Part shown: positions 1,340-36,059 of the stretch, piece after piece
Layout: each line of letters opens with the position of its first letter
How positions within the stretch are numbered: the first letter of the stretch is position 1
Source: Elusimicrobia bacterium GWC2_64_44
GTDB taxonomy: Bacteria; Elusimicrobiota; Elusimicrobia; Elusimicrobiales; UBA9959
Length of the DNA: 64,000 nucleotides
Assembly (NCBI GenBank): GCA_001799845.1
Contig: MGUG01000027.1
Span: forward strand, 62,001 to 126,000
Direction of reading: 5' to 3'
Notes under the pieces: generated by a model
Databases searched by the model: none
What the model saw: only the letters and a program-made list of their open reading frames with translations
What the model was told of the DNA's origin: nothing
Made by a program: the position numbers and the translations under genes

Positions 1340-1460
1340 CGGCCGGGGAGGGGTTCCGTGCGACTTTGGGGAAGGGGGTCCCGCCCATAATTTACCAAGG
1401 GCGGGGGAAACCGCGCAACGGTTTCCCTCTACCAGGAGCACGGGGCCCCTCCCCGGCTGG
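1340..1460 (+). repeat. Structured intergenic repeat, family A, copy 1
   Basis: Same core as 9788-9916 and (reverse) 35928-36059. The outer arms are a perfect 12-bp inverted repeat, 1342-1353 with 1446-1457. The inner hairpin at 1406-1426 (GGAAACCG-CGCAA-CGGTTTCC) is one A-T pair longer than in copy 2. Together with family B copy 1 and two terminators it fills the 407-base gap between 1129 and 1537. I see no gene there. Confidence 0.75.
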
Positions 1461-1489
1461 CCCCGACTTTGCATCTCGCGGGAAGAAAT

Positions 1490-1519
1490 AAAAATACCCG
1501 CCGGAGGGCGGGTATTTTT
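1490..1519. terminator. Bidirectional terminator
   Basis: A 13-bp stem (1490-1502 with 1507-1519), AAAAATACCCGCC with its complement and a 4-nt loop, has A-rich and T-rich ends suitable for both strands. It lies 18 nt beyond the stop of the minus-strand histidine kinase gene. Confidence 0.8.
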
Positions 1520-1536
1520 GCGGTGAGCGAGCTGTG

Positions 1537-3099
1537 TTAGGCCGGGAGGGCGATGGTGAAGGCGGAGCCCTTCTGCAGCTGCGAGCGGGCGAAGACCTTG
1601 CCGTTGTGGGCTTCGGCTATTTTCTTGACCAGCGCCAGGCCGAGGCCCCAGCCCTCTACCTGGCCCGTGAAAGAGGATTCCACCTGGTAGAACTTGTGGA
1701 AGATGTTCTCCAGCTCCTCGCCGGGGATGCCGGGGCCGTTGTCGCCCACGGAGATAAGCGCGTAGCCGTCGCGGGCCTGCGCCGAAAGGATGACCAGCTT
1801 GTCCTTGGCCGGGTTGAACTTCACGGCGTTGTCCACCATGGCTTTGATGGCCGTGGCCAGCAGTTTGCGGTCGGCCTTTACCATGACAGGCTCGGTAGCC
1901 ACCACCTTAATGGTGACCTGCACCGGGTCCTTGTGCCAGAGCTTGGCCACTTCCGCCACCTCGGAGAGGAACTCCGACGCGTCGAACTCTATCTTCTCCA
2001 GCTCGGCCGCCCCGAGGTCGTCTATGGTGACGAAATTAAGCAGGCTCTCCACCAGGCCGTTGAGTTTCTGGCCCTGGGCGTGGATGGTCTCGGAGGACTT
2101 CTTTACCAGGTCGGGCAGCTGCGTCCTGGCCGTTTCGTCCTTGAGCAGCTGCGCGAAACCGTTGATGGAGGCCAGCGGCGTCTTGAACTTGTGCGAGATC
2201 AGCGACAGGAAGCTGCGCGCCATGAGCTCTTCCAGCCGCTGCGCGGTCACGTCGGTGAGGATCCACAGCTTGCCCTCGGCGACCTGATTGCCTTCTTTAT
2301 CTTCCTTGAAAAGCTTTATCGCCGAGCCGTCCATGTAGAACTTCTTGGGCTTGGCCCGGAACAGCTCGAAGCGGCAGGCGGCGTCGTCGCAGGAGGAGAC
2401 CTTGTCTATGCCCGGCTTGATCTCGAAAGCCTGGAAAGCGCCGCTGACATTGGTGAATTTGTACTTGTCGTGCTCGAGATAGGTCTTGGCGGCGCTGTTG
2501 ATGAGGATGATCTCGCCGTTGAGGTCGGTGAGGATGGCGCCTTCCTTGACGCGCTTGAAGACTATCTCCATCTTGCGCTTCTCTTCCTTGACGGAGGAGA
2601 ACAGGCGCGAGTTCTCTATGGCGATGGCGGCCTGGCTGGCGAAGGCCTCGAAATTGTTCTTGTCCACTTCCTCGAAGGTGCCCTCGATGCGGTTGACGGC
2701 CTGCACCACGCCGATGACCTTGCCCTTGATGATCATCGGGCAGGTCAAGAGCGACCGCGTGATAAAGCCGCTCTTGGAGTCCGCCTTCTTGGAGTGGCGC
2801 GGGTCGTTGGCCGCGTCGGCGATGATGATGGAGCGGCCTTCCTTCGCGCAGGTGCCGGCTATGCCCTCGCCCAGCTTGAAGCGCATCTTCTGCACTTCCT
2901 CGGGCAGGCCCAGGGCCACGTCGAAATAGAGTTCCTGCGCCTTCTCGTCGAGCAGGTACAGCGAGGCGCGCTCCGCCCCCACCACGCGCGAAGCCAGCCG
3001 CATGATGGTGGTCAGCAGTTCGGAGATATCTAGTTTGGAGGAAAGCAGCCGGCTCACCATCACCAGCATTTCCAGGCTTTCCTGCGATTGTAATATCAT
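1537..3099 (-). CDS. GAF/PAS sensor histidine kinase
   Basis: 520 residues, no membrane segment, so a cytoplasmic sensor. A GAF domain (about 20-165) is followed by a PAS-like domain (about 175-285), a HisKA dimerisation domain with the phospho-acceptor His303 in SHKFKTPL, and a HATPase_c domain with N box DNAVKFNP, G1 box DNGPGIP and G2 box GWGLGLALV. It should autophosphorylate and pass phosphate to a separate response regulator; none is encoded next to it. The start lies 9 nt after an outer-membrane-barrel gene on the same strand, so the two are probably co-transcribed. The signal sensed by the GAF domain cannot be told from sequence. Confidence 0.9.
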   Translation of the reverse strand: MILQSQESLEMLVMVSRLLSSKLDISELLTTIMRLASRVVGAERASLYLLDEKAQELYFDVALGLPEEVQKMRFKLGEGIAGTCAKEGRSIIIADAANDPRHSKKADSKSGFITRSLLTCPMIIKGKVIGVVQAVNRIEGTFEEVDKNNFEAFASQAAIAIENSRLFSSVKEEKRKMEIVFKRVKEGAILTDLNGEIILINSAAKTYLEHDKYKFTNVSGAFQAFEIKPGIDKVSSCDDAACRFELFRAKPKKFYMDGSAIKLFKEDKEGNQVAEGKLWILTDVTAQRLEELMARSFLSLISHKFKTPLASINGFAQLLKDETARTQLPDLVKKSSETIHAQGQKLNGLVESLLNFVTIDDLGAAELEKIEFDASEFLSEVAEVAKLWHKDPVQVTIKVVATEPVMVKADRKLLATAIKAMVDNAVKFNPAKDKLVILSAQARDGYALISVGDNGPGIPGEELENIFHKFYQVESSFTGQVEGWGLGLALVKKIAEAHNGKVFARSQLQKGSAFTIALPA

Positions 3100-3108
3100 C
3101 CTAGGTCC

Positions 3109-3990
3109 CTAAAAAAACAGCTGCAACAAAAGTCTGTAGTAGCTCTTCGGCGCGTCGCCCTCAGCCTTGAAGGCGTTATAGGCCAGGTCCAGGGTGCTTT
3201 TCTCGTTGAGGTTCAGCTTGAGGCCCGTTATGAACGATCCGGCCTTCTGCGCCCGCCTGAAGGATATTTTACTATATCCCGCGTAAATATGGCTGTCGTA
3301 ATCCGGCCGCATGCTGCGGGCTATCTGCGCGCTCAGGGACCACTCGGGCAGGGCGGTCACGGGGCGGAAGGTGCCCAAATAGGCCAGGTCGGCCTGGTCC
3401 AGGACCGGCTTCACCAGGGTGGAGTTGGCGGCGCCGTTGCCGGGTTCGTTGAAGCCCGCGGCCGAGGCCAGGAAGAAGAACTGGTTGTAGAAGGACTTCT
3501 CCACCTGCGCCTCTACGGCCGCCTGCGAGAAGGTTTTGCGCGCCAACACGCCGCCCTCGCTGAGGAAGGCCTTCTGCTGAGCCCAGGCGCCCGAGAGTAT
3601 GAGGTGCGTGTAGGTGTCGTCCTGCTCTTCCCCGATCGAGGTCAGGAAATACAGCTTGCCGCCGTAGGCGCCGGAGCGGGTGTAAGCGGAAACAGGATAC
3701 AGAAAGGGCTTGAAGGAGACGAAGTAACCGGCGCGCGAGTACATCAGCGGCAGGCGCAGCGAGTAGACGCTTTCCTCGTAGGCGCCGGTGTCTTTGTAAA
3801 AAGAGAGGTTCAGGCCGGTGGTGAAGGCGGCCGAGGCTTTTCGGTACACCGTGATCGAATCCTTCTTCAGCCCGTTGGAGCCGAAGGAGTAATCGTTCTC
3901 CATCCACCAGGCCGCGCGGGGCTGGCCCGCCGCCAGGGCGGGAGCTGCGGCCAGGGCCGCAAAAGCGGCGGCGAGGAGTAAGCGCTTCAT
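3109..3990 (-). CDS. Predicted outer-membrane beta-barrel protein
   Basis: 293 residues with a clear signal peptide (MKRLLLAAAFAALAAAPALA). The mature part consists of alternating amphipathic strands rich in Tyr, Phe, Gly and Ser and ends in ...LLLQLFF, with the terminal Phe typical of BAM-inserted barrels. No recognised family; pore or sensor roles are open. It is first in a two-gene unit with the GAF/PAS histidine kinase. A TATAAT box at 3999-4004 lies 8 nt before the ATG with no Shine-Dalgarno, suggesting a leaderless mRNA. Confidence 0.75.
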   Translation of the reverse strand: MKRLLLAAAFAALAAAPALAAGQPRAAWWMENDYSFGSNGLKKDSITVYRKASAAFTTGLNLSFYKDTGAYEESVYSLRLPLMYSRAGYFVSFKPFLYPVSAYTRSGAYGGKLYFLTSIGEEQDDTYTHLILSGAWAQQKAFLSEGGVLARKTFSQAAVEAQVEKSFYNQFFFLASAAGFNEPGNGAANSTLVKPVLDQADLAYLGTFRPVTALPEWSLSAQIARSMRPDYDSHIYAGYSKISFRRAQKAGSFITGLKLNLNEKSTLDLAYNAFKAEGDAPKSYYRLLLQLFF

Positions 3991-3998
3991 TCGTTTAT

Positions 3999-4024
3999 AT
4001 TATATATTAAAACGCCCGTTTTAA
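3999..4024 (-). promoter_or_regulatory. -10 box and palindrome upstream of the beta-barrel gene
   Basis: On the minus strand TATAAT (3999-4004) lies 8 nt before the ATG at 3990. Immediately upstream, 4007-4024 is a perfect inverted repeat TTAAAACG-CC-CGTTTTAA in the -10/-35 spacer region, a plausible operator. No good -35 box is seen. Confidence 0.45.
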
Positions 4025-4051
4025 AACGCGAAAATCAAGCGTGGGAGCGGC

Positions 4052-4083
4052 TAAAAAAAGAACCCTCCCGGGCGGGAGGGTTC
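4052..4083 (-). terminator. Rho-independent terminator
   Basis: A 10-bp stem GAACCCTCCC (4060-4069) pairs with 4074-4083. Read on the minus strand it is followed by seven T. It lies 20 nt past the stop of the NHSPVD-repeat gene. Confidence 0.8.
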
Positions 4084-4102
4084 TTCGTTCGCGCTGCCGC
4101 TT

Positions 4103-5056
4103 TTACTGCGCGGAATTCTTCATGAAGAGGAAGAAATACTGCAGGAAGTCGTAGAGGTCGCAGTTGACCAGGTTCACGTCAACGGGGCTGTGGTTCATGT
4201 AGCCGCCGATATGGCCGTTGACCTTGTTGTAGATCAGGCCCACGGGGGCGTGGCCAGCGTAGCCGGTCACGTTCACGATGGTCTGGTCGATGTAGCCCTC
4301 GCCCATGTTGAACTCGAGCTTTACGGGGGAGTGGGAGGCGTGGCCTTCCAGCAGGCCTTTCTTCCAGTTGACGGTATACTTGACCGGGGAGTGGTTAGCG
4401 CCGCCGTAGACGGTGACTTCTTCCTTGCTCCAGTCGAACTTCAGGTCCACCGGGCTCAGGTTGGCGCCGCCGGTGATGGTTTTTTCGTCGTGGTTTATCT
4501 TCACGTCCACCGGGGAGTGGTTCATGCCGCCGGTGAAGGTCCAGGCCAGCTTGTCGAACTTGACGTCCACGGGGCTGTGGTTCATGCCGCCCTTGATGGT
4601 GCCCTGCTTCACGGCGTAGGTGGACTTGTTGTTGAGGCCGAAGAGCTGGTTATGCACGCGCTGGCCCACCTTCACCTCGCTGATGTAGTAATAGCGGGCG
4701 AGGCCTATGGCGTAGTCGGCCGCGTCCAGGCCTTTAACGTCCACGAAGACCATGTAGCCGCCCTGGTTGTCCTGGAGGGCGCTGGCCTTGAAGCCGTTGG
4801 CGTTGAGCTCGGCGACTACCTTGTCGATGTCCTGGCCGGGCTGCACCAGGCCGATGAGGGTGTCGTTCATGTCGGGCTGGGCGGTGTTAACGGTGATCTT
4901 GCGCAGGGTCATCCACTGGTTGGCCTTGGGGGCCTGGGGGGCGGGTACTTCTACCGCCGGGAGGGTGAAGCCGGCCTGGTTGAGGACCTGGCTTTCACCG
5001 GCGAAGGCCGGGAGGGCGGAAACGGAGAGTAGGATAGCGGCTAAGGCTTTGTTCAT
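4103..5056 (-). CDS. Secreted protein with seven NHSPVD repeats
   Basis: 317 residues. Signal peptide MNKALAAILLSVSALPAFAG, then a domain (about 30-150) without recognised family, then seven repeats of about 20 residues (about 156-298) with consensus GG-M/A-N-H-S-P-V-D-V-K followed by a short charged strand. Successive repeats begin GGMNHSPVD, GGMNHSPVD, GGANLSPVD, GGANHSPVK, GHASHSPVK, GYAGHAPVG and GYMNHSPVD. The regular period suggests a beta-solenoid or a hairpin stack with the N-H-S-P-V turn exposed. A hydrophobic aromatic tail (LYDFLQYFFLFM) follows. AGGAGG upstream supports the ATG. Function unknown; adhesion or envelope binding is speculation. Confidence 0.75.
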   Translation of the reverse strand: MNKALAAILLSVSALPAFAGESQVLNQAGFTLPAVEVPAPQAPKANQWMTLRKITVNTAQPDMNDTLIGLVQPGQDIDKVVAELNANGFKASALQDNQGGYMVFVDVKGLDAADYAIGLARYYYISEVKVGQRVHNQLFGLNNKSTYAVKQGTIKGGMNHSPVDVKFDKLAWTFTGGMNHSPVDVKINHDEKTITGGANLSPVDLKFDWSKEEVTVYGGANHSPVKYTVNWKKGLLEGHASHSPVKLEFNMGEGYIDQTIVNVTGYAGHAPVGLIYNKVNGHIGGYMNHSPVDVNLVNCDLYDFLQYFFLFMKNSAQ

Positions 5057-5183
5057 TAGAACCTCCTGCTTGGTATAGTTATATTCTGCCAGAAAAAGGC
5101 CGGCGCCGCATCGGGCGCAGGGCCTAGGGGGGCGGAGTTATTGGGCCCAGGCCCGGTATAGGCCTTGCCGCGCGGCCGGCCCC

Positions 5184-5211
5184 TTGACAGGTCAAAGCCG
5201 TCTGCTATACT
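5184..5211 (+). promoter_or_regulatory. Sigma-70-type promoter for the clostripain-family gene
   Basis: TTGACA (5184-5189), a 16-nt spacer and TATACT (5206-5211). The -35 lies in an inverted repeat TTGAC-AG-GTCAA. The start codon is 30 nt beyond the -10 and has its own GGAGGA site. Confidence 0.75.
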
Positions 5212-5240
5212 ATTGGCGTAAGTACTTCTACGGAGGATTT

Positions 5241-6602
5241 ATGAAAAAATCGTTAGCGATACTCGCGGTCTTCGGGCTGCTGGCGCCGGTTTTCGCGGCG
5301 GACAACGCGCTTAACCTGGACAGCCGCACCGCCCGCACCGCCCCGGCCGCTTCCGCGCCGGCGCAGGTAGCCGCGGCCAGAGGCGGCGACGCCCCGGCTG
5401 CCATAAAGGAATGGACCGTCATGGTCTTCATCAACGGCAAGAACGACCTGGAACTGGCCGGCCTCTATAACGTCAACATGATGGAGAAGGTCGGTTCTAC
5501 CAAGGACCTCAATATCGTGGTGGAGCAGGGCCGCATGAAAGGCCAGGCCGGCGGCGACACCGACCTGGACGGCGACTGGACCGGCGCCCGCCGCATGCTT
5601 GTCAAGAAGGACAAGAACGAGAACAAGATCACCTCGACCGTCCTGCAGGAGGACAAGGTCGTGGACATGGGCGACTACAAGCGCGCGGTGGACTTCGTGA
5701 AATGGTCCAAGCAGCGCTTCCCGGCCAAGCGCTACATGCTCATCATCTGGAACCACGGCACCGGCTGGATGGACCCGCGCATGGAGAGCAAGGGCATCTC
5801 GTTCGACGACGAGACCGGCAACTACATCCGCACGGCGCAGATCGGCAAGATCCTCAACGAGGCCGGCAAGGTGGACATCCTGGCTTTCGACGCCTGCCTG
5901 ATGAACATGGCCGAGGTGGCCTACGAAGTTAAGGACCAGGCTCAGGTGATAGTGGGTTCGGAAGAGACCGTGCCCGGCCTGGGCTACCCGTACGACCTGT
6001 TCCTCGGCGCTATCGCGAAGAAGCCCGCCATGGGCACCGAAGAGACCGGCGCGCTGATGGTGGAAGCCTTCAAGATGTTCTACGAGAAGGCCAACAAGAA
6101 CGTGCAGCTCTCGGCGATGCGCGCTAACAAGGTGGCGGGGCTCGGGACCAAGATGGCCGAGTTCGCGACGCTGGCCAAAGAGATAAACGACGTGGACGCG
6201 CTGAAGGCCGCCCGCAACGGCGTGATCCGCTACGACGCGGTGGGCGCGGGTTCGGACCCGGCGATGACCATCTCGTTCTACGGCGACATCTGGCAGTACT
6301 CCAAGCTGGTGGCCGATAACCTGAAGCCGCACGCCAAGGCCGCGGACCTGAAGGCCAAGGCCGTCTCGCTGCAGGAGTACATAGACAAGGACCTGGTCAT
6401 CTACAACAAGGGTGTGGGCAAGAACCGCGCCAACCACCAGATGGCCGAGAGCCACGGCGTCTCGGTGTACCTGCCGCCCGCGGAGACCCGCGTGCCGCAG
6501 GAGAAGCTGGAGGGCATCTTCGAGGCGCCCTACACCGACTTCGCCTTCGACAAGGCGACCAAGTGGCACGACTTCGTGACCTTCCTCTACGGCGCGAAGT
6601 AA
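5241..6602 (+). CDS. Secreted clostripain-family (C11) cysteine peptidase
   Basis: 453 residues from the ATG at 5241, chosen because GGAGGA lies 4 nt upstream and MKKSLAILAVFGLLAPVFAA is a signal peptide; an upstream TTG overlaps the -35 box and is rejected. Family hallmarks are the catalytic His172 in IIWNHGTGW and Cys219 in AFDACLMNMAEV, each after a hydrophobic beta strand, as in the caspase-like fold. The family cleaves after basic residues, usually after self-processing. The protein is likely periplasmic or exported. Monocistronic: it has its own promoter and a following terminator. Confidence 0.88.
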   Translation: MKKSLAILAVFGLLAPVFAADNALNLDSRTARTAPAASAPAQVAAARGGDAPAAIKEWTVMVFINGKNDLELAGLYNVNMMEKVGSTKDLNIVVEQGRMKGQAGGDTDLDGDWTGARRMLVKKDKNENKITSTVLQEDKVVDMGDYKRAVDFVKWSKQRFPAKRYMLIIWNHGTGWMDPRMESKGISFDDETGNYIRTAQIGKILNEAGKVDILAFDACLMNMAEVAYEVKDQAQVIVGSEETVPGLGYPYDLFLGAIAKKPAMGTEETGALMVEAFKMFYEKANKNVQLSAMRANKVAGLGTKMAEFATLAKEINDVDALKAARNGVIRYDAVGAGSDPAMTISFYGDIWQYSKLVADNLKPHAKAADLKAKAVSLQEYIDKDLVIYNKGVGKNRANHQMAESHGVSVYLPPAETRVPQEKLEGIFEAPYTDFAFDKATKWHDFVTFLYGAK

Positions 6603-6621
6603 GCGAGCCTCAGCGTAATGA

Positions 6622-6656
6622 AAAATACCCCGGCCCCCGCCGGGGTATTTTTTTGC
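6622..6656 (+). terminator. Rho-independent terminator
   Basis: A 13-bp stem (6622-6634 with 6641-6653, AAAAATACCCCGG and its complement) with a 6-nt loop and a T run, 20 nt after the peptidase stop. Confidence 0.85.
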
Positions 6657-6673
6657 CCGCCTTCTCATGCCGC

Positions 6674-6866
6674 GGCCCGGGCGGGCTCGCCGCTCGCTCA
6701 TAAGCGGCCGCGGCCGAAGAGGGCCTGCGGTCCTCCGCCGGCAAAGAACTCGCTCGGCACACAGTGCCTCGCTCAAACATTCTTTGCCGCCGCCTTAATG
6801 ATAGGCGGTCCGCTACGGACCTTGGCCCTGCGGCCTAAAATCGCTCGCAGCGAGCCCGCCCGGGCC
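6674..6866 (+). repeat. Structured intergenic repeat, family C, copy 1
   Basis: About 193 bp, bounded by a perfect 16-bp inverted repeat (6674-6689 GGCCCGGGCGGGCTCG with 6851-6866). The interior is almost identical to 7951-8108, with about 4-5 differences in 160. An internal hairpin GGCAC-ACA-GTGCC (6756-6768) resembles the family B hairpin. With a terminator and a leaderless promoter it accounts for the 6603-6902 gap; the short open frame across it is not a gene. Confidence 0.85.
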
Positions 6867-6889
6867 TTCCTGACGCTGTGATTATTAAC

Positions 6890-6895
6890 TAGAAT
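6890..6895 (+). promoter_or_regulatory. -10 box adjacent to a leaderless start
   Basis: TAGAAT lies 7 nt before the GTG at 6903. There is no Shine-Dalgarno between them and no clear -35. Confidence 0.4.
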
Positions 6896-6902
6896 CTAAA
6901 TT

Positions 6903-7928
6903 GTGAAGAAGATACTGCTGGCGAATTTTGCGGAGTGCCCGGAGAACCTGCATTTCGAGCGGGCTTTTATCCGCGCGCTGGCGGGGCGCAAGGTTGCGCT
7001 GGACATAATCCACGACTTCGATTTCGATTATAAATTTATCGGGGCGCAGGTGCCGCGGGGCGGCAGGCGTATTAAATACTCCGGGCTGGCGGCGCTCAAG
7101 CGCGAAGCGGCGGGCAAGTACGATCTGCTGGTGCTGCTGGATTTCCCCAAGCGCGCGCGCTGCGCGCCGGCTTTCCTGTGGCTCGCGCGCGAGGCGGACG
7201 CCGCGAAAAAGGTTTATGTTGCCAATCACCTGATACCCATGCCGGGGCATAACTTCACGGCGGACCTGGCGCGGCGCTACAAGGCGCTGTCGGGGCTGAC
7301 GGCGGGCTACATGCTGGAGTTCGACGACTGGGAACTTTGGGGAGCGATGGGCCTGGAGGGGGAGCGGCTGCTGCGCCGCGGCTACGCCACCGATTGCGAA
7401 TACTACAAGCCGGTGCCCGGCGCGCCCGGCGATTATGTTTTTTCGGCGGGCTCGGCGGGGCGCGCTTTTGACGCGCTGGCCGGGGGCGTTAAGAACACCG
7501 GCCTGGGGCTCAAGATCTTCAGCGACGCCAAGCCCGATAAGCTGCCGCGGGGCGCGCAATTCTTGCCGCTCGCGAAGAACCTGCACAACCTCAAGGCCGC
7601 CGCCGCCGAGGCGCGCGCGGTGGTGATACCGGTGAAGGACGGGCATGTCAACGAGGCCGTGGGCAACTCCATCGCTTTCCTGGCCATGGCGCTGGGCCGC
7701 CCGGTGCTCATCCGTAAGACCCCTTACATGGAGCGCTTCATAAAGGACGGCGAGAACGGTTTCTTCTACAATTCCCTTTCCCCGCTCACCATAGCCCGTG
7801 GCCTCAACCGCATACTCGCGCTAAAGCCCGCCCAGCTTAAAAAGATCTCCGCCGCCGCCCGCGCCACCATCCTCCAAAAAGCCAGCCTCGACCTCTTCTG
7901 CAAAGAATTCGCGCGTAAATTCGCTTAG
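6903..7928 (+). CDS. Glycosyltransferase-like protein (GT-B/GT4 type)
   Basis: 341 residues starting at GTG. The N-terminal half has a Rossmann-like beginning (KKILLANFAECPENLHFERAFIRAL). The C-terminal half has the pattern of a GT-B nucleotide-sugar-binding domain: strand, LPLAKNLHNLKAAAAEARAV, then a helix-rich segment with GRPVLIRKTPYMERFIKDGENGF, matching the usual E-x7-E region of group 1 transferases. No signal or membrane segment; a cytoplasmic enzyme using a nucleotide sugar is likely, with acceptor unknown. It stands alone between two directly repeated family C elements. Confidence 0.6.
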   Translation: MKKILLANFAECPENLHFERAFIRALAGRKVALDIIHDFDFDYKFIGAQVPRGGRRIKYSGLAALKREAAGKYDLLVLLDFPKRARCAPAFLWLAREADAAKKVYVANHLIPMPGHNFTADLARRYKALSGLTAGYMLEFDDWELWGAMGLEGERLLRRGYATDCEYYKPVPGAPGDYVFSAGSAGRAFDALAGGVKNTGLGLKIFSDAKPDKLPRGAQFLPLAKNLHNLKAAAAEARAVVIPVKDGHVNEAVGNSIAFLAMALGRPVLIRKTPYMERFIKDGENGFFYNSLSPLTIARGLNRILALKPAQLKKISAAARATILQKASLDLFCKEFARKFA

Positions 7929-7934
7929 CCTCCG

Positions 7935-8127
7935 GGCCCAGCCGGGCTCCCCGCTCGCTCATAAGCGGCCGCGGCCGAAGAGGGCCTGCGGTCCTCCGCC
8001 GGCAAAGAACTCGCTCGGCACACAGTGCCTCGCTCAAACATTCTTCGCCGCCGCCCTAATGATAGGCGGTCCGCTACGGACCTTGGCCCTGCGGCCTAAA
8101 ATCGCTCACGGGGAGCCCGGCTGGGCC
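7935..8127 (+). repeat. Structured intergenic repeat, family C, copy 2
   Basis: Direct repeat of 6674-6866. The outer arms form a perfect 19-bp inverted repeat (7935-7953 with 8109-8127) beginning GGCCCAGCCGGGCTCC. Over the aligned 16 bp they differ from copy 1 at three positions, and all three changes are matched on the opposite arm. Inner hairpin at 8017-8029. This element occupies most of the 7929-8244 gap. Confidence 0.85.
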
Positions 8128-8244
8128 GGTGCGTGGGCAATCCCAACGCAATGCCCTGTTTCGCCGGGAAGCGCGGGGGCTTTTAATTTGTTAGAATTTA
8201 AGCGTAGTCCTACATTTTCTGGCGGGTCTTGAGGTGAATAACTG

Positions 8245-9777: not shown

Positions 9778-9787
9778 CCAGGCGGGC

Positions 9788-9916
9788 GAAGTCGGGGGGT
9801 AAGGGTTCCTCGCGACTTTGGGGAAGGGGGACCCGCCCTTAGTTTCCCAAGGGCGGGGGGAACCGCGCAACGGTTCCATTCTGCCCAGGAGCGAGGGGCC
9901 CTTACCCCCCGACTTC
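9788..9916 (+). repeat. Structured intergenic repeat, family A, copy 2
   Basis: About 129 bp between guaA and guaB, bounded by a perfect 18-bp inverted repeat (9788-9805 with 9899-9916) whose sequence is unrelated to the arms of the other two copies. Core hairpin GGAACCG-CGCAA-CGGTTCC at 9859-9877, preceded by a second stem CCCGCCCTT / AAGGGCGGG. Confidence 0.85.
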
Positions 9917-9944
9917 CACTAGTTTGGATACCCAAGGAGATATC

Positions 9945-11402: not shown

Positions 11403-11412
11403 GGCGCAGCGC

Positions 11413-11455
11413 AAATAAAAAAGCCGCCGGCTGAAAACCGGCGGCTTTTTTATTT
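11413..11455. terminator. Bidirectional terminator between convergent genes
   Basis: An 18-bp stem (11413-11430 with 11438-11455) has a GC core GCCGCCGG and A/T flanks. It lies between guaB and the convergent enoyl-CoA-hydratase-family gene and can serve both. Confidence 0.9.
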
Positions 11456-11464
11456 GAGGGGCTT

Positions 11465-12247: not shown

Positions 12248-12278
12248 GGTCCGCCTCCTTAAACCGCTTTCAGCATTG

Positions 12279-12284: not shown

Positions 12285-12291
12285 TTTAAAT

Positions 12292-26386: not shown

Positions 26387-26411
26387 CTCGGGCGGCAAAG
26401 ATATATATAAA
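26383..26411 (+). promoter_or_regulatory. Promoter giving a leaderless mRNA
   Basis: TTGACT (26383-26388, overlapping the TGA of the upstream gene), a 17-nt spacer and TATAAA (26406-26411). The ATG at 26418 lies 6 nt after the -10, at the expected transcription start, and there is no Shine-Dalgarno. Confidence 0.7.
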
Positions 26412-26417
26412 TCTGTT

Positions 26418-27452: not shown

Positions 27453-27458
27453 GTATTT

Positions 27459-27923: not shown

Positions 27924-28324
27924 CGCTAAAAGAACTGATACGCGCCGCCATCAGCGGCGAGATGGAAGATATCTCCGCCTGCAAAGTGGACATCGTCGCC
28001 TTCGGCGCGGCGCCCGGAGGGCAGAAGCCCGCCGAATTATACGAGAAGCTTATAGAAGAGAAGCGCACCCGCCTGCTGGACCTGGGCCGCATCTTCAAGG
28101 AAGGCACCGGCTTCCGCCAGCGCGCCATACCGCACGCGCGGTCGCTGGAGGCCTCGCTGCGCGCCCGCGCGGCGCGGGCCGGCGCGGCCGCAGTGGTCTA
28201 CGCCGACCTGATGAAGGTGATGAACAAGCCGGAGTTCAAGGCCGTCATGAAAGCGCTCTCGGAGCGGGAGCGCGCTGTGTACGCCGAGGTCAAGGCTATG
28301 CAGGCGGAACTTAAAAAAGATTGA
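27920..28324 (+). CDS. Small helical protein of unknown function
   Basis: 134 residues, ATGA overlap with the YhcH-like gene. Almost entirely predicted helix (LKELIRAAISGEMEDISACKVD, ...ALSERERAVYAEVKAMQAEL). The beginning recalls rubrerythrin-type ferritin-like proteins, but a full set of metal-binding Glu/His motifs is not visible. I do not assign a function. Confidence 0.65.
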   Translation: MTLKELIRAAISGEMEDISACKVDIVAFGAAPGGQKPAELYEKLIEEKRTRLLDLGRIFKEGTGFRQRAIPHARSLEASLRARAARAGAAAVVYADLMKVMNKPEFKAVMKALSERERAVYAEVKAMQAELKKD

Positions 28325-28347
28325 GGAGCGCGGAGGCGCAACGCCGG

Positions 28348-28377
28348 AGGCCGGCCCTTAGCGGGGCCGGCCTTTCG
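28348..28377. terminator. Terminator hairpin between convergent genes
   Basis: A 10-bp stem AGGCCGGCCC (28348-28357) with 28364-28373, followed on the plus strand by TTTCGCTTT. The loop contains the TAA of the minus-strand TPR gene, so the hairpin overlaps that coding end. Confidence 0.65.
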
Positions 28378-30073: not shown

Positions 30074-30081
30074 CAAGAGGG

Positions 30082-30109
30082 ATTATAGCAAGTCAGAAAA
30101 AGATAAAAT
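30082..30109. promoter_or_regulatory. Divergent leaderless promoter region
   Basis: Minus strand: TGCTATAAT with the hexamer at 30082-30087, 8 nt before the TPR-protein ATG. Plus strand: TAAAAT at 30104-30109, 5 nt before the methyltransferase ATG. The two starts are only 41 bp apart. Confidence 0.5.
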
Positions 30110-30114
30110 CTTGT

Positions 30115-30888
30115 ATGGCCAGACTGAAGATAGCCGACGGTTCGGAAATTTACGGCGACGCGCTGCAGTACGACGCCTTCAATGACCCCGCCAGCGGCGA
30201 CGCCGACTACTACCTTGCCGAGGCGCGCCGCGCCCGCGGCCCCGTGCTGGAGCTGGCCTGCGGCACCGGGCGATTGACCATACCTTTTAAGAAGGCCGGC
30301 GTGGATATCACCGGGCTGGACTCGGCCGCGCCCATGCTGGCGCAGGCCCGCGCCAAGGCCGCCGCCGCCGGGGCGCAGGTGCGCTTCGTGCCGGGCGACG
30401 CCCGCAAATTCAGCCTGGGCCGCAAGTTCAAGCTGATCTTCATGGCCTTCAATTCCGTGCAGCACCTGGGCGGCCGGCGGGACATGGAGGGCCTGTTCGC
30501 CTCGGTGCGCCGCCACCTGGCTCCTGGCGGGCGCTTCATCTTCGACGCTTTCAGCCCCGATCCGCGCTACCTGACGCGCGATCCGGAGGAATTGCTGCCG
30601 GTGGCTTACTATGACGATCCGTCCGGCCCGGGTAAAATTCTGGTCAATGAGCGCTATTCCTATGATAAAGTGGCCCAGACCTCGCGCATAGACTGGTATT
30701 ACAGGCGCGAAAAAGACGGCAAAACCGTCAAAAAACGCTTGAATCTGCGGTGTTTTTTCCCCGAAGAGCTGCTGGCGCTGGCGCATTACAACGGTTTCAG
30801 GGTGGCGGCCCGCTACGGCGGCTTCAGGCGCGAGGCTTTCGACGGGAATTCTTCCCGCCAGGTGCTGGTCTGCCGGCCCCGTCCCTGA
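30115..30888 (+). CDS. Class I SAM-dependent methyltransferase
   Basis: 257 residues. Motif I VLELACGTGRLTIPFKKAG, acidic motif II end ITGLDSAAPML, then VRFVPGDARKF and KLIFMAFNSVQHL correspond to the Methyltransf_25-type core. The C-terminal part has an antiparallel sheet region (DWYYRREKDGKTVKKRLNLR). Cytoplasmic; substrate unknown. The start is leaderless in appearance. It stands alone between a divergent TPR gene and the rpsF operon. Confidence 0.85.
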   Translation: MARLKIADGSEIYGDALQYDAFNDPASGDADYYLAEARRARGPVLELACGTGRLTIPFKKAGVDITGLDSAAPMLAQARAKAAAAGAQVRFVPGDARKFSLGRKFKLIFMAFNSVQHLGGRRDMEGLFASVRRHLAPGGRFIFDAFSPDPRYLTRDPEELLPVAYYDDPSGPGKILVNERYSYDKVAQTSRIDWYYRREKDGKTVKKRLNLRCFFPEELLALAHYNGFRVAARYGGFRREAFDGNSSRQVLVCRPRP

Positions 30889-30895
30889 GGCCTTC

Positions 30896-30924
30896 TTGTA
30901 AACCCGCCCGGGATTTGGTATTAT
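30896..30924 (+). promoter_or_regulatory. Promoter of the rpsF operon
   Basis: TTGTAA (30896-30901), a 17-nt spacer and TATTAT (30919-30924). The rpsF ATG at 30934 is 9 nt beyond the -10, leaving almost no leader and no Shine-Dalgarno. Confidence 0.6.
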
Positions 30925-30933
30925 TACCCTACT

Positions 30934-31245
30934 ATGAATACCTATGAGTTAATGCTGATTATCAATCCCCAGCTTACCGACGCCGAAGTCGCGGAAGCCG
31001 TGGAAAAAGCCAAAAAGGTCCTTACCGACGAGAAGGGCGAGGTCCTTGCCGAAGACAGGCTGGGCCGCAAGAAGTTCTCCCACGCCGTCAACAAGAACCG
31101 CGACGGCTATTACGTCTACATGAAGGTCAAGGCGACTCCCGAAAGCGTGAAGGTCATTAACCATGCCCTGAAGCTGCAGGAAACCGTACTGCGCGCCCTG
31201 ATGATGAAAGCTACCGTCGAGCCGGTGGCCGTCAAGAAGCCTTAA
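30934..31245 (+). CDS. rpsF: Ribosomal protein bS6
   Basis: 103 residues. It begins NTYELMLIINPQLTDAEV and contains DRLGRKKFSHAVNKNRDGYYVYM, the typical bS6 RNA-binding pattern; it binds 16S rRNA with bS18 in the 30S platform. First gene of rpsF-ssb-rpsR-rplI-dnaB, the common bacterial order. Confidence 0.97.
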   Translation: MNTYELMLIINPQLTDAEVAEAVEKAKKVLTDEKGEVLAEDRLGRKKFSHAVNKNRDGYYVYMKVKATPESVKVINHALKLQETVLRALMMKATVEPVAVKKP

Positions 31246-31264
31246 GCCGAAGTTTTTTACTTCT

Positions 31265-31714
31265 ATGGAATTAAGGATGCCGGAGATCAACTCGGTGATG
31301 CTGGCGGGCCGTCTGACCCGCGATCCCGAGGTGCGCTACACCCAGTCGCAGATGGCCGTGGCCAGCCTGGGGCTCGCCGTGAACCGCCGCTTCCAGGACA
31401 AGGCCTCCGGCGAGTGGAAGGACGACACCATCTTCGTGTCCGTCACCGTGTGGGGCCAGGCCGCCGAGCGCTGCAAAGAGAAAATGCGCAAGGGCACCCC
31501 GCTGCTGGTGGACGGCCGCCTCACGATGTCGGAATACACCGACAAGACCGGGGCCAAGCGCAAAGAGATGAAGGTGACCGCCAACCGCGTGCAGATCATG
31601 TCTTTCGACGGCCCCGCCGGCGAAGGCGCCCCGAAGTCCGCGCCCGCCGAGGAGTCCGTGGAAGCCGAGGCCAAGCCCGGCGCCGAGGGCGGCATAGAAG
31701 AAGTGCCGTTCTAG
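31265..31714 (+). CDS. ssb: Single-stranded DNA-binding protein
   Basis: 149 residues. OB fold (about 5-110) with INSVMLAGRLTRDPEVRYT and WGQAAERCKEKMRKGTPLLVDG, then an acidic Ala/Glu/Pro-rich tail ending EEVPF, the hydrophobic acidic tip that binds repair proteins. The ATG at 31265 gives four extra residues; the ATG at 31277 (MPEINS) is an alternative, since neither has a good ribosome site. Confidence 0.95.
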   Translation: MELRMPEINSVMLAGRLTRDPEVRYTQSQMAVASLGLAVNRRFQDKASGEWKDDTIFVSVTVWGQAAERCKEKMRKGTPLLVDGRLTMSEYTDKTGAKRKEMKVTANRVQIMSFDGPAGEGAPKSAPAEESVEAEAKPGAEGGIEEVPF

Positions 31715-31747
31715 CAGGATTTTAGAAATCAGGTAGGAGCTAATACT

Positions 31748-32074
31748 ATGGAGAATACCGAAAATACCACCCCCAAGCCGGCGGAGACCGCCGCGCCCAG
31801 GCCCCAGGGAGCGCCCGCGCACCGCGAGGGCCCCGGCGGGTTCCGCCGCCCCGGCGGCCGCAGGTTCGCGCCGCGCCGCAAGGTGTGCCGCCTCTGCGCC
31901 GAGAAGATCGCCCTGGTGGACTACAAGCAGGCCCAGATCGTCAAATCGTTCTGCACCGACACCGGCAAGATCCTGTCCCGCCGCATCACCGGCGCCTGCG
32001 CCAGGCACCAGCGCCAGATCATGCGCGCGGTGAAGATCAACCGCAATCTGTCCCTCATGCCCTATAGCGGCTAA
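31748..32074 (+). CDS. rpsR: Ribosomal protein bS18 with extended N-terminus
   Basis: 108 residues, longer than the usual ~75 because of a Pro/Thr/Gly-rich N-terminal extension (about 1-42). The core is typical: KVCRLCAEKIALVDYKQAQIVKSF...RRITGACARHQRQIMRAVKINR. It pairs with bS6 in the 30S subunit. AGGAGC precedes the ATG by about 7 nt. The extension may be disordered and is a lineage feature. Confidence 0.95.
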   Translation: MENTENTTPKPAETAAPRPQGAPAHREGPGGFRRPGGRRFAPRRKVCRLCAEKIALVDYKQAQIVKSFCTDTGKILSRRITGACARHQRQIMRAVKINRNLSLMPYSG

Positions 32075-32086
32075 TTGGAGCAAATC

Positions 32087-32536
32087 ATGAAAGTCATACT
32101 CAAAAAAGACGTTAACAACCTGGGCCGCTCCGGCGAGATAAAGACCGTGAAAGACGGCTACGCCCGCAACTTCCTGATGCCCCGCGGCATGGCCGAGCTG
32201 GCCACCGAGGGCTCGCTGAGCGCCTGGAAGAATTCCGCCGACAAGCGCGCCAAGCGCGTCGCCTCGGAGGACGCCGGCCTGCAGGACCTGGCCAAGCGCC
32301 TTTCCGCGATCACCCTTTCCTTCTCGCGCCCCGTTTCCGAAGAGGGCGTGATGTTCGGGTCCGTGGCCAAGAGCGACATCATCAAGAACCTGGCCGCCGC
32401 CGACATCGAAGTGCACAAGGACATGATCCGCCTGCCGGCCTCCCTTAAGGCCGTCGGCACCTTCGAGGTGGAGATCGCTTTGAAGCCGCATATAGCCGCC
32501 AAGATAAAGGTGGCGGTTTCCGCGCAGAGCAAGTAA
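32087..32536 (+). CDS. rplI: Ribosomal protein bL9
   Basis: 149 residues from the ATG at 32087, with GGAG about 9 nt upstream; the in-frame ATG at 32075 is rejected since it precedes the conserved MKVILKKDVNNLGRSGEI start. The N-terminal domain and long connecting helix are followed by a C-terminal domain. Normal length. Confidence 0.96.
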   Translation: MKVILKKDVNNLGRSGEIKTVKDGYARNFLMPRGMAELATEGSLSAWKNSADKRAKRVASEDAGLQDLAKRLSAITLSFSRPVSEEGVMFGSVAKSDIIKNLAAADIEVHKDMIRLPASLKAVGTFEVEIALKPHIAAKIKVAVSAQSK

Positions 32537-32630
32537 GTCACAGCGGTCATTCCTGATAAGCCCGGAGCCGAGGCCGCCATGGCCGGAGCCCGGGTTTGTC
32601 ATCACAAACCAAACAGGGCAGGGGATTCAC

Positions 32631-34016
32631 ATGAGCTATAACAAGGTTCCTCCGCATTCCACCGAGGCGGAAATGGCCGTGCTCGGCGCCATGCTCATCG
32701 AGAAGGAAGCCATCGACGGGATCCTGGAGATCCTGGAGCCCAAACATTTTTACAGCGACATCCACGCCAGGATCTACGAGTCCATCCTGGACCTGCGGCA
32801 GCGCAACCTGCCCGTGGACGTGGTCACCCTGTCCGAGGAGCTTAAGAAGACCAACCGCCTGGAGGAGCTGGGCGGCCAGAAATACATGGCCGAGCTGATG
32901 GAGAAGGTCTCCACCGCCGCCCACACGCAGGCCTACGCCAACATCGTGCGCGAAAAGGCGCTGCTGCGCGAGCTGATCCGCGTCTCCACCAATATCGTGG
33001 AGAAATCCTTCGACGGCTCCGAGAGCGTCGACAAGATCATGGACTACGCCGAGGAGAAGGTGCTCTCCGTCGCGCAAAAGAACACCGACCACGGCTTCGC
33101 CTCCTCCGCCACGCTGGCCGGCGAGACCCTGGCCCGCATAGAGAAGACCTACAACCAGCATTCCGCCGTCACCGGCGTGCCCACCGGCTTCGCCAAGCTC
33201 GACGACATGACCGGCGGCTTCCAGAAGTCGGACCTGATCATCCTGGCGGCCCGCCCGTCGATGGGCAAGACCGCGCTGGCGCTGAACATGGCATACCACG
33301 CCTGCGTCGAGAAGAAGGTCCCCACGGCGTTCTTCTCGCTGGAAATGAACCGCTATTCCATCATGCAGCGCCTCATCTGCTCGGCCGCGCGCGCCAACCT
33401 CAGCGGCGTGCGCAAGGGGCAGCTGTCGCGCGATATCTGGCCGCAGCTCACCCGCTTTACCGGCCTGGTCTCGGAGGCGCCGCTCTTTGTGGACGACTCG
33501 CCCGGCCTCAACATCCTCGACATCCGCAACCGCACGCGCAAGCTGATGACGCAGCTCAAGAACGAGGGCAAGCAGCTGGGCCTCGTCGTGATAGACTACC
33601 TGCAGCTCATCCGCGGCGCTGGCCGCAGCGAGAGCCGCCAGCAGGAAGTGGCCGAGATCTCCCGCCTGCTCAAAGACCTGGCCCGCAGCCTGGAGCTGCC
33701 TATCGTCGCCCTCTCTCAGCTTAACCGCCGCAGCGAGGACAAGGGCCGCGAGGGCAACCGCCCGCAGCTCTCCGACCTGCGCGACTCCGGCTCCATCGAG
33801 CAGGACGCCGACCTGGTGGGCCTGATCCACCGCGAGGAGTACTACAAGCGCGAGGACCCGACCCATAAAGGCAAGGCCACGCTGATCATAGCCAAGCAGC
33901 GCAACGGCCCCGTCGGGGACGTGGAAATGGCTTTCATCCACGAATACACCAAGTTCGAGAACCTGGCCACCCAGGCGCCGGAGCCCATGGGGGCCGAGAC
34001 GGCCTCGGTCTACTAG
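32631..34016 (+). CDS. dnaB: Replicative DNA helicase DnaB
   Basis: 461 residues. N-terminal DnaB domain (PPHSTEAEMAVLGAMLIEKEAIDGI), linker, then the RecA-like ATPase with Walker A ARPSMGKTALALN, GLVVIDYLQLIRG (Walker B region) and the arginine-finger region SDLRDSGSIEQDADLV. It unwinds DNA at the fork as a hexamer. Usual length; no intein. The 94-nt gap after rplI contains GC-rich dyads but no clear terminator. Confidence 0.97.
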   Translation: MSYNKVPPHSTEAEMAVLGAMLIEKEAIDGILEILEPKHFYSDIHARIYESILDLRQRNLPVDVVTLSEELKKTNRLEELGGQKYMAELMEKVSTAAHTQAYANIVREKALLRELIRVSTNIVEKSFDGSESVDKIMDYAEEKVLSVAQKNTDHGFASSATLAGETLARIEKTYNQHSAVTGVPTGFAKLDDMTGGFQKSDLIILAARPSMGKTALALNMAYHACVEKKVPTAFFSLEMNRYSIMQRLICSAARANLSGVRKGQLSRDIWPQLTRFTGLVSEAPLFVDDSPGLNILDIRNRTRKLMTQLKNEGKQLGLVVIDYLQLIRGAGRSESRQQEVAEISRLLKDLARSLELPIVALSQLNRRSEDKGREGNRPQLSDLRDSGSIEQDADLVGLIHREEYYKREDPTHKGKATLIIAKQRNGPVGDVEMAFIHEYTKFENLATQAPEPMGAETASVY

Positions 34017-34034
34017 GAGCGCTGCCGGCCTTTC

Positions 34035-35135
34035 ATGGCAACCATCCTGCGCCCGACCATCGCCGAAATACGGCTTTCAGCCGTAAGGAAGAACCTTCAG
34101 AAGCTGAAGAAAGCAGCCGCGCCCGCGCGGCTGCTTTTCGTCGTCAAGGCCAACGCCTACGGGCACGGCGCCGTGGAGCTGGCGCGCCTGGCCGAGCGCG
34201 AGGGCCTGGCGTACGGCTTCGGGGTTTCCAGCGTGGAGGAGGGCCTGGCGCTGCGCGCGGCCGGCCTGAAGAGCCCGGTGCTGGTGCTGGGCAGCCTGTA
34301 CCCTTTCGAGAGCTTTGTGGAGGCCATCAACTCCGACCTGATGGTGACCATCGCCAGCCTGGACGCGGCGCGGCAGGTGGCCGAAGCGGCTCGCGCGGCC
34401 GGCCGCAAGGCCGTCTGCCACGTCAAGCTGGAGACCGGCATGGGGCGCATCGGCGCGCGCCGGCCCTCCGTGCTCAAGATCTACGACGAGCTCCGCGCCC
34501 ACGAGGGGGTGGAGATAGGCGGCGTCTACACGCACCTCTCCAGCGCCGACAGCGACCCGGACTACACCGGCGCGCAGCTGGCCATCTTCAGCGAGACCGC
34601 CGTCGAGCTGGAGCTGCGCGGCGCGCGCGGCCTGACGCTGCACGCGGCCAACTCCGCCGCCACCATGAATTTCCCCGTCAGCCGCCTCGATATGGTGCGC
34701 TGCGGCATCGCTGCCTACGGCGGGCTGTCCGGCTTCGAGCCGGCGATGTCGCTGAAGACCCGCATCGTCTTCCTCAAGAACGTGCGCGAGGGCGCCTATA
34801 TCAGCTACAACAAATCCTTCCGCGCCGACCGCGCCATGAAGATAGCCACCGTGCCCGCCGGCTACGGCGACGGCTATATCCGCCGCTTCTCCAACAAGGC
34901 CGACGTGCTGATAGGAGGCAAGCGCTGCCGCGTGCTGGGCAACGTCACGATGGACATGACCATGGTGGACGTGACCGCCGTTAAAGAGGCCGCCGTCGGG
35001 TCGGAGGCGGTGCTGCTGGGCCGGCAGGGCGCCGAAGAAGTGACCGCGGAAGAGCTGGCGGAGCTGGCGGGCACGATAAATTACGAGATCTTCACGCAGG
35101 TCTCCGCCCGCGTGCCGAGGGTGTTCGTCGAATGA
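34035..35135 (+). CDS. alr: Alanine racemase
   Basis: 366 residues. PLP-binding lysine in LLFVVKANAYGHGAVELA, catalytic-region TGMGRIG, and GYGDGYIRRFSNKADVLIGGKRCRVLGNVTMDMTMVDVT in the C-terminal domain. It makes D-alanine for peptidoglycan. It overlaps mlaE by 4 nt (ATGA), placing cell-wall and lipid-transport genes in one transcript. Confidence 0.95.
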   Translation: MATILRPTIAEIRLSAVRKNLQKLKKAAAPARLLFVVKANAYGHGAVELARLAEREGLAYGFGVSSVEEGLALRAAGLKSPVLVLGSLYPFESFVEAINSDLMVTIASLDAARQVAEAARAAGRKAVCHVKLETGMGRIGARRPSVLKIYDELRAHEGVEIGGVYTHLSSADSDPDYTGAQLAIFSETAVELELRGARGLTLHAANSAATMNFPVSRLDMVRCGIAAYGGLSGFEPAMSLKTRIVFLKNVREGAYISYNKSFRADRAMKIATVPAGYGDGYIRRFSNKADVLIGGKRCRVLGNVTMDMTMVDVTAVKEAAVGSEAVLLGRQGAEEVTAEELAELAGTINYEIFTQVSARVPRVFVE

Positions 35136-35920
35136 AATACTGCCTGACCGAAAAGATCGGCGGCGAATTTATCGCCCTGACCCAGGCGCTGGGTTCGGCC
35201 GCGCTGATGCTGCGCTCCGTGTTCTTCTGGTTCTTCCGCTCCAAGCTGGAGGTCCACGAGACGGTGAAGCAGTGCGTGAGCATAGGCGTGGACTCCGTCA
35301 CCGTGACCGCGCTGACCAGCTTTTTTACCGGCATGGTGCTGTCGCTGCAGACCGGCAACTCCTCCAAGAACCTTTTCAACGAGCCGCTCTACATCGGCAC
35401 GATGGTGGCTTTCACGATGCTCAAGGAGCTGGGCCCGGTGCTGACCTCCATCGTCGTGGCGGGCCGCGCGGGCGCCGTGGTCACGGCGGAGATAGGCACG
35501 ATGGCCGTGACCGAGCAGATAGACGCGCTCTATACCCTGGGCACCAACCCGACGCGCTACCTGCTGGTGCCGCGCTACATAGCCTTCATGGTCATGCTGC
35601 CGCTGCTCACGGTGCTGGCGGACTTCCTGGGCATCCTCGGAGGCGCCTTGGTGGGCGTGGTGCGGCTGGGCATCCCGACGTCGGTGTTCATGAACGACAT
35701 CTACACCTACGTCGAGATAGGCGATTTCATGCACGGCTTCCTGAAGACCTTCGCCTTCGCCTTCATGATCGCCACGGTCTCCTGCTACAAGGGCATGAAC
35801 ACACGGGGCGGCGCCGAAGGCGTGGGCAAGGCCACCACCGAGGCCGTGGTCGCCAGCATGGTGCTGGTGATGGTCATAGACTATTTCATCAGCGCCATCC
35901 TCGTGGCGGTGGGAATATGA
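35132..35920 (+). CDS. mlaE: Mla-type ABC permease
   Basis: 262 residues, about five membrane segments. Matches the MlaE/permease pattern: VTALTSFFTGMVLSLQTG, ELGPVLTSIVVAGRAGAVVTAEIGTMAVTEQIDAL and GVGKATTEAVVASMVLVMVIDYFIS. Inner-membrane permease of an MCE phospholipid transporter working with the ATPase and MCE protein encoded downstream. It is separated from mlaF by a family A repeat element. Confidence 0.93.
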   Translation: MKYCLTEKIGGEFIALTQALGSAALMLRSVFFWFFRSKLEVHETVKQCVSIGVDSVTVTALTSFFTGMVLSLQTGNSSKNLFNEPLYIGTMVAFTMLKELGPVLTSIVVAGRAGAVVTAEIGTMAVTEQIDALYTLGTNPTRYLLVPRYIAFMVMLPLLTVLADFLGILGGALVGVVRLGIPTSVFMNDIYTYVEIGDFMHGFLKTFAFAFMIATVSCYKGMNTRGGAEGVGKATTEAVVASMVLVMVIDYFISAILVAVGI

Positions 35921-35927
35921 TGGGGGC

Positions 35928-36059
35928 GCGGCCTGGCCTGGGGCTGTCCCCTCTCACCCGGACTGCAGGAACCCTTGCGTCGGTTCCCCCCGCCTTGGGA
36001 AATTATGGCGGGGCCCCCTTCCGCAACGGGTGCTCGGGAACAACCCCAGGCCAGGCCGC
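35928..36059 (-). repeat. Structured intergenic repeat, family A, copy 3
   Basis: Reverse orientation relative to copies 1 and 2. Bounded by a perfect 16-bp inverted repeat (35928-35943 GCGGCCTGGCCTGGGG with 36044-36059), unrelated in sequence to the other arms. The hairpin at 35968-35987 corresponds to the GGAACC...GGTTCC hairpin of the family. It lies between mlaE and mlaF. Confidence 0.85.

Follow-up and report, generated by a model that had tools for sequence, protein, structure and literature searches.

Bacterial genomes carry group-specific mobile repeats with conserved secondary structure, such as the bcr1 and BOX elements; we know of no module inserting into the hairpin tips of either, and we set both apart here by description, not by sequence. 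Insertion sequences (ISs) that target repetitive extragenic palindromic (REP) sequences are 1-2 kb long and bear a transposase gene. Correia/NEMIS, ERIC/RU-1, YPAL/RU-2, CIR and RPE are roughly 100-170 nt, intergenic, multi-copy and able to fold; empty and filled sites are described for YPAL, and two arms with a linker for CIR (PMC2229807). REPs, bacterial interspersed mosaic elements (BIMEs) and REP doublets forming hairpins (REPINs), which go with REP-associated tyrosine transposases (RAYTs), are high-copy, extragenic, palindromic and paired at regular spacing, and the preservation of REP palindromes hints at complementary mutations (PMC2817692). IS1397, IS621, ISPpu9 and others insert into palindromic REP sequences at one exact point (PMC1525189), and mitochondrial repetitive hairpin and double-hairpin elements are tiny, tandem double hairpins, mostly intergenic, with conserved stems and variable loops (PMC2800124). 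In this work we analyzed a 64,000-nt stretch of the genome of Elusimicrobia bacterium GWC2_64_44 (contig MGUG01000027.1, positions 62,001 to 126,000; hereafter the window), which holds three copies of an intergenic palindromic repeat that we call family A.

Family A resembles the miniature inverted-repeat transposable element (MITE)-type repeats in being short, intergenic, multi-copy, able to fold and present at filled as well as empty sites; it differs from them in a long outer stem that changes by compensation between lineages, in a three-way junction core with a near-invariant hairpin, and in its pairing with a partner, family B, at fixed spacing (compared with PMC2229807). We consider it probable that A, in one genus of the Elusimicrobiales, is a palindromic element which is mobile but non-autonomous and which folds as a single strand. 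The observations that carry this reading are the dispersal of A, its empty sites, a fold based on covariation, the order and spacing of B-A units, and compensatory change at two fixed loci. Together with a 46-nt module, C, families A and B are best read as a structured, modular variety of bacterial MITE/REP-type mobile repeats, and a new one among these. The three window copies and their parts, with the stems named P1 (outer), P2 and P3, are as follows.

1340..1481, plus strand: family A copy 1, including its distal end CCCCGACTTTGCATCTCGCGG (1461-1481); the A half of a B-A unit
1341..1361, plus strand: copy 1, P1 left arm, GGCCGGGGAGGGGTTCCGTGC
1438..1459, plus strand: copy 1, P1 right arm
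1380..1405, plus strand: copy 1, P2 hairpin, CCCGCCC (1380-1386) with GGGCGGG (1399-1405)
1406..1426, plus strand: copy 1, P3 hairpin, GGAAACCG with CGGTTTCC, loop CGCAA (1414-1418)
9788..9916, plus strand: family A copy 2, solitary, in the spacer between guaA (GMP synthase) and guaB (IMP dehydrogenase), genes assigned by Pfam
9788..9813, plus strand: copy 2, P1 left arm
9891..9916, plus strand: copy 2, P1 right arm
9832..9857, plus strand: copy 2, P2 hairpin
9859..9877, plus strand: copy 2, P3 hairpin, GGAACCG-CGCAA-CGGTTCC
35928..36059, minus strand: family A copy 3, solitary and antisense, flanked by genes for an MlaE permease and an ABC-transporter ATPase (Pfam)
36036..36059, minus strand: copy 3, P1 left arm (5' on the minus strand)
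35928..35951, minus strand: copy 3, P1 right arm
35988..36013, minus strand: copy 3, P2 hairpin, CCCCGCC with GGCGGGG
35968..35987, minus strand: copy 3, P3 hairpin, loop GACGCAA; TTGCG in the J1/2 segment is complementary to CGCAA

We take the ABC-transporter ATPase gene beside copy 3 to be mlaF. A first-pass annotation of the window had described these three copies, and we found them where it had placed them. It had also described perfect 12-18-bp inverted repeats closing each copy, which measured 12 bp in copy 1 (GCCGGGGAGGGG/CCCCTCCCCGGC), 18 bp in copy 2 (GAAGTCGGGGGGTAAGGG and its complement) and 16 bp in copy 3 (GCGGCCTGGCCTGGGG and its complement). Its statement that the inner stems keep pairing was borne out both by P3, where the copy 1 arms listed above correspond to GGAACCG/CGGTTCC in copy 2, and by P2, where CCCGCCC/GGGCGGG becomes the shifted yet complementary CCCCGCC/GGCGGGG in copy 3. 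The same annotation held the outer arms to be unrelated between copies. That is true of the three window copies and fails beyond them: among the copies fetched, the left arm of copy 1 recurs exactly in 9 other copies of its own genome and with at most two mismatches in 4 more, and across the genus the arms of one junction type align as diverged, co-varying versions of each other.

In order to find further copies, as the annotation had proposed, we built a covariance model of the A core from 16 sequences (R1). Against the own genome (3.09 Mb, 60 contigs) R1 found 31 copies at E<1e-12, and blastn with copy 1 gave 28 match rows in 27 places, all with E 1.2e-9 or better, well past what chance would yield. 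Across the genus, represented by Elusimicrobiales metagenome-assembled genomes (MAGs) with at most 150 candidates scored per genome, R1 matched at E<=0.001 in 31 of 32 genomes, with 1 to 98 matches in each matching genome and rows that sum to 609. Beyond the genus, under stricter filters, 8 of 196 class genomes had 1-3 weak matches (best E 1.6e-9). A pattern scan of named genomes returned at least 107 stretches; among the 80 listed, every title naming a taxon read Elusimicrobia or Elusimicrobiales, and the rest read "bacterium." Plasmids and phages gave no match to a 301-nt query, and viral contigs gave none to one exact A pattern. An Rfam search of the whole window returned only a tRNA at gathering score, and permissive Rfam searches of 11 and of 9 loci gave matches only far below gathering scores. 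A limited search of the open-licence literature turned up no paper that we recognized as describing A, B or C elements.

Several MAG contigs end in or beside A or C (L191, L195, L196, L246, L247 and others; loci and genomes carry our L and G labels), so our element counts are probably lower bounds. Both elements seem to break assemblies of these MAGs. The 11 A copies listed for contig C51 of genome G028 span ~470 kb and are all minus-strand, the other contigs being mixed. Replication-strand bias was considered for this contig and set aside, GC skew in 20-kb windows being too weak to orient replication.

Family A is ~120-150 nt long and folds as a three-way junction of P1, P2 and P3, of which P3 is near-invariant (GGAACCG-CGCAA-CGGTTCC). 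We measured covariation at 30 named pairs in all 24 of 113 copies whose core starts with CCGTTG. With a reference structure read from one of the 24 (L232), which favors that structure somewhat, 96.1% of cells were paired and both sides had changed at 22 of the 30 pairs. Double-changed cells numbered 127 versus 33.6 after shuffling; none of 500 shuffles reached any of five covariation measures, and moving the partners by 1-3 columns lowered pairing to 41.5-53.3%. P2 co-varies in this set as well, and where P3 changes in length its two sides do so together. In many copies P1 contains a tandem G.A internal loop, exactly GAGC/GAGC in 13 of the 24 and GCGA/GGAGC in the copy 1 type, and the inner part of P1 with this loop is conserved in type. 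The J1/2 segment and the P3 loop change together in 23 of the 24: with GTTGGGGA in J1/2, the loop is GCGCAAC in 11 of 11 copies, and with GTTGCGGA it is GCGCAAC in none of 10, seven of which contain CGCAA. This co-change would fit a pseudoknot, GTTG/CAAC or TTGCG/CGCAA, and is suggestive only. The commonest P2 cap is a long loop containing TTCC (90 of 136 distinct regions), the others being chiefly CTT or GNA triloops. UUCG-capped P2 stems, once considered as evidence for RNA, were rejected, the caps parsing as CTT triloops. In L110 (1685-1817) and L339, P2 holds other long hairpin-bearing inserts (~80 nt and more), unlike module C.

The outer arms differ from copy to copy yet remain paired. 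Of 125 A copies, 12 with short flanks or Ns were dropped, and in the 113 distinct copies analyzed the two own arms paired at a mean of -65.4 kcal/mol versus -40.7 for 3000 random cross-copy pairings. Arms at least 15 columns long and at least 85% complementary occurred in 49 of 68 non-redundant copies, versus a mean of 0.9 of 68 with shuffled arms. In a strand-neutral alignment, which treats transitions alike, the non-Watson-Crick transitions of the same 68 copies were 98 G.T versus 25 A.C (shuffled arms, 69 versus 51), an excess suggesting that it is the R1-oriented strand that folds; it is support for the fold, not proof. An earlier count of 254 G.T versus 26 A.C was discarded, since it came from an RNA-energy aligner that favors G.U by construction. 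Change can also be followed in place. Flank-matched sites yielded 89 pairs of A copies that are not identical, and we compared three solitary pairs by hand: L097/L393 has 2 clear pair-keeping double changes and L170/L367 has 3, so that compensation was seen at two of the three loci. The annotation's proposal of a structured element is thus supported by strong covariation among copies and by these changes. At several of the B-A sites that G000 and G028 have in common, the subfamily differs while the flanks match (e.g., L090/L251 and L252/L287), and because of this, A copies may have been overwritten by other copies. The poorly paired arms of L203 and L233 resemble halves of different types and possibly mark recombinants.

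Mobility, which the annotation had offered as its other possibility, is supported by near-identical copies at differing sites, by empty sites in relatives and by the near restriction to one genus. At 30 fetched loci of the mlaE-mlaF junction, 16 have a bare ATGA-type overlap, 4 hold A, all reversed (window copy 3, L165, L168 and L170), 5 hold B (L161, L164, L167, L169 and L175) and 5 could not be parsed. At 28 guaA loci, A lies in the spacer in 2 (G000 and, reversed, G003) and B in 3; the guaA stop lies just 34-71 nt from a conserved guaB motif in 9 loci, versus 191 nt in G000, 4 of the remaining loci have longer spacers, and in 10 the motif was not found. Further flank-matched filled and empty pairs support insertion, and L029-L032 carry a near-same element with different downstream flanks. 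The P1 palindrome was absent from all empty sites displayed, as judged by eye. A copies are dispersed, near-identical and without coding capacity, as is expected of MITEs, and the behavior of A, B and B-A units alike is that of a non-autonomous mobile repeat of MITE/REP type.

A is often the right half of a larger unit. The window holds two copies of family B, for which we built a model from nine sequences (R2).

1213..1321, plus strand: degenerate family B copy, the upstream half of copy 1's B-A unit; 50.8 bits, E 1.2e-7
36882..36992, minus strand: solitary family B copy; 110.9 bits

The arms of B are variable, and 17 of 26 non-redundant copies are well paired versus 0.25 after shuffling. Among the matches listed for G000, G028 and G019 (G003 was left out), neighbors within 600 nt form 39 B>A> pairs and 7 B><B pairs and no other arrangement. 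Spacing from B to A is 42-106 nt, and 75-83 nt in 35 of the 39 pairs; a B-A unit measures roughly 370 nt. Its right end is CCCCGACTGGGCATCTCGCGG, which occurs only on the distal side of A in 41 sequence stretches; in the same 41, no inverted end matching it with four or fewer mismatches was found on the B side. No full-length parent transposon was seen at the Y1-transposase loci described below, and no search was made beyond those loci. Two A copies point apart in L110 (108 nt between them) and in L066 (~630 nt). A 23-nt insert, GTGCATTGTCGCTTCGCTCCACA, lies in the own-genome B copies L274 and L275; L271 and L281 have equally long B matches. At mlaE-mlaF, outer arms shared by the A of L165 and the B of L164 were considered as an exchange of cores, which we did not accept; they are perhaps the usual B arm.

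On this reading the locus-specific stems of A are P1 lineages whose two arms changed together, and the arms come in with A and form no part of the target. The folded strand, whether RNA or single-stranded DNA, would be recognized by a mobilizing enzyme or by a host process acting on transcripts, and selection on the fold would keep the arms paired. Several observations weigh against this account. In L233, 9 of the 30 pairs are broken; the arms of L203 pair at merely -39.5 kcal/mol; and the third orthologous pair compared by hand, L052/L342, has single changes only. The wobble bias is weaker in the gapless 24-copy alignment (21 G.T versus 10 A.C) and absent from family B (12 versus 12 in the 26 non-redundant copies; 18 G.T versus 29 A.C in all 51). 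ATGA stands on both sides of A in 3 of the 4 mlaE-mlaF sites (L158, L165 and L170; L168 has TAA on the left), and a target duplication could be read from it, but a repeated ATGA is also needed by two intact genes. No mobilizing gene came to light: among the matches listed, A occurs at none of 30 Y1-transposase loci. Finally, a simple self-trained gene caller gave both neighbors for 45 copies of G000 and G028: 18 lie between convergent genes, 13 are tandem in the same sense, 12 tandem in the opposite sense and 2 lie between divergent genes. The tandem contexts thus have no preference for transcript orientation, which does not speak for an RNA role.

This last result also bears on the possibility that A is mainly a host-functional structured RNA, at mRNA 3' ends or between cistrons, and was dispersed incidentally. 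Strong covariation, compensation in place at two loci, the tandem G.A motif, the possible pseudoknot and the near absence of A from divergent promoters would all suit such an RNA. Nevertheless, besides the even split of tandem orientations, sites beside the same gene are filled in some species and empty in others, Rfam has no match, and the P2 caps are mostly long loops, otherwise chiefly CTT/GNA triloops, instead of tetraloops typical of RNA. We regard a host RNA as rather unlikely.

Doubtful, in our judgment, is a purely mutational correction of the palindrome during replication. Quasipalindrome template switching is known in bacteria, and by copying one arm onto the other it would keep P1 paired with no selection on the fold. 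The arms are indeed very long, nearly perfect and different between lineages, and B has no wobble bias. However, such correction should erase mismatches, whereas the tandem G.A loop is kept in place, and it should treat G.T and A.C alike, which the strand-neutral count in A does not bear out; moreover, P2 co-varies too, and P3 changes length on both sides at once. Family A numbers hundreds of copies and offers both orthologous loci and empty sites, which makes it an unusually clean natural data set for asking whether long palindromes are kept paired by selection on the folded strand or by arm-to-arm copying.

The paired B-A units recall BIMEs, spacing being regular in both, but A and B units are much larger than REPs, BIMEs or REPINs and have a branched fold, and the Y1 genes examined do not adjoin A (compared with PMC2817692). 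An element of REP/REPIN type moved by a RAYT (Y1) transposase is improbable as an account of A. It would explain why units pair at a fixed distance, the sense being inverted when A is taken for B's reverse partner, and Y1 genes are present in 27 of 32 genus genomes. Against it, the 30 Y1 loci gave, apart from the lack of A, one B match, a weak one (E 0.026), and neither size nor fold is like that of 20-40 bp REPs. The one Y1 locus that we read, L302, has its RAYT-like gene bordered by a different, GGGGACAGTATACTCAACC-like repeat. Because none of the 30 loci carries A, we have not filed A and B as REPs.

The first-pass annotation had also suggested that the A core inserts into the tips of existing hairpins, with the outer arms as target; we consider this very improbable for A, for although the arms differ by locus, L164 and L165 share parts of the outermost arm and module C shows that such insertion exists in these genomes, the displayed empty sites have no palindrome, the type of the inner P1, tandem G.A included, is conserved, the common B arm may be all that makes L164 and L165 alike, and the arms come with the insertion.

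It is to module C that the idea of hairpin-tip insertion does apply. C is exactly 46 nt long; some A copies have it in their P3 loop (for example L026, L034 and L241 in the own genome, and also L203), and other hairpin loops hold it as well. A 17-base signature of C matched 104 times in 19 of the 32 genus genomes, versus 0 for the reversed control; G022 had 20 of the matches and G018 had 17, while 13 sister genomes had none. Our set of C sites comprises 56 distinct ones with sufficient flank, a part of which had been located by way of A; matches that were not fetched, or whose flanks fell short of 30 nt, are excluded. C was preceded by a C base in all 56 and followed by A or T in 55; it was single in 53 and two or three in a row in 3. 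It lay within a hairpin loop at 48 of the 56 sites, 45 by known loop motif and 3 by minimum-energy fold (L433, L436 and L482). The motif-assigned contexts, which were not folded one by one, are the A P3 loop (18), the B P3 loop (17), the B P4 loop (5), a CCCGAC^AAGGG hairpin (3) and terminator-like loops (2). The other 8 comprise 1 B internal loop, 5 sites beside or inside another C-like piece (by eye) and 2 with no evident hairpin (L465 and L483). These contexts are not independent, many sites lying within A and B; eight distinct hairpin kinds were counted.

Tests that look for the stem directly agree with this assignment. Stems of at least 8 bp were found at 43% of C sites, versus 6% elsewhere in those sequences and 3.3% of C^W positions drawn at random from the genomes, and fold alone put 22 of the first 26 sites in loops versus 18% in the control. 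At each of the 40 sites in A or B loops, C had the sense of its host element and never the opposite, which the C base required before the join may explain. C itself co-varies at 3 pairs, with 25 double-changed cells versus 8.6 after shuffling, in 20 of 46 distinct sequences chosen for diversity and with several positions fixed by the search pattern; the count of co-varying pairs alone was no better than in shuffles (254 of 500 reached it). C is thus a second element, inserted in hairpin loops whether of A, of B, of terminator-like or of other kinds, and because no target duplication is visible at its insertions, joining at the single-strand level is suggested.

Our tentative proposal, to which we give somewhat less than an even chance, is that A, B and C make up an ecosystem of single-strand parasites, one nested in another. 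A and B would fold as single strands; C, a double hairpin of 46 nt, would be a mobile element that targets by structure a C followed by A or T in the loop of a hairpin on the folded strand, joining without duplication. If so, C would rank among the smallest known mobile elements, and we know of no earlier element that recognizes hairpin loops in general instead of one repeat sequence. Insertion by loop structure would point to an enzyme that joins tiny pieces of DNA or RNA into hairpin tips and a stepwise building of branched structures, possibly of use as a tool. Like the REP-targeting ISs, C has palindromic targets and an exact insertion point; unlike them, it has no coding capacity, measures 46 nt and is not tied to one repeat, occurring in the loops of several hairpins that are unrelated to each other (compared with PMC1525189). 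The mitochondrial hairpin elements are nearest in size but have the opposite pattern: here the stems co-vary, and the P3 loop and the TAT loops of C are conserved (compared with PMC2800124).

Other repeats were seen in the window. A 193-nt direct repeat with 95% identity (6674-6866 and 7935-8127) stands on either side of an open reading frame (ORF) at 6903-7928. Ten copies of a 51-bp-spaced repeat (57552-58137) lie inside the ORF at 57330-58160, and this array is enclosed by identical 30-nt hairpin-like stretches at 57230-57259 and 58177-58206.

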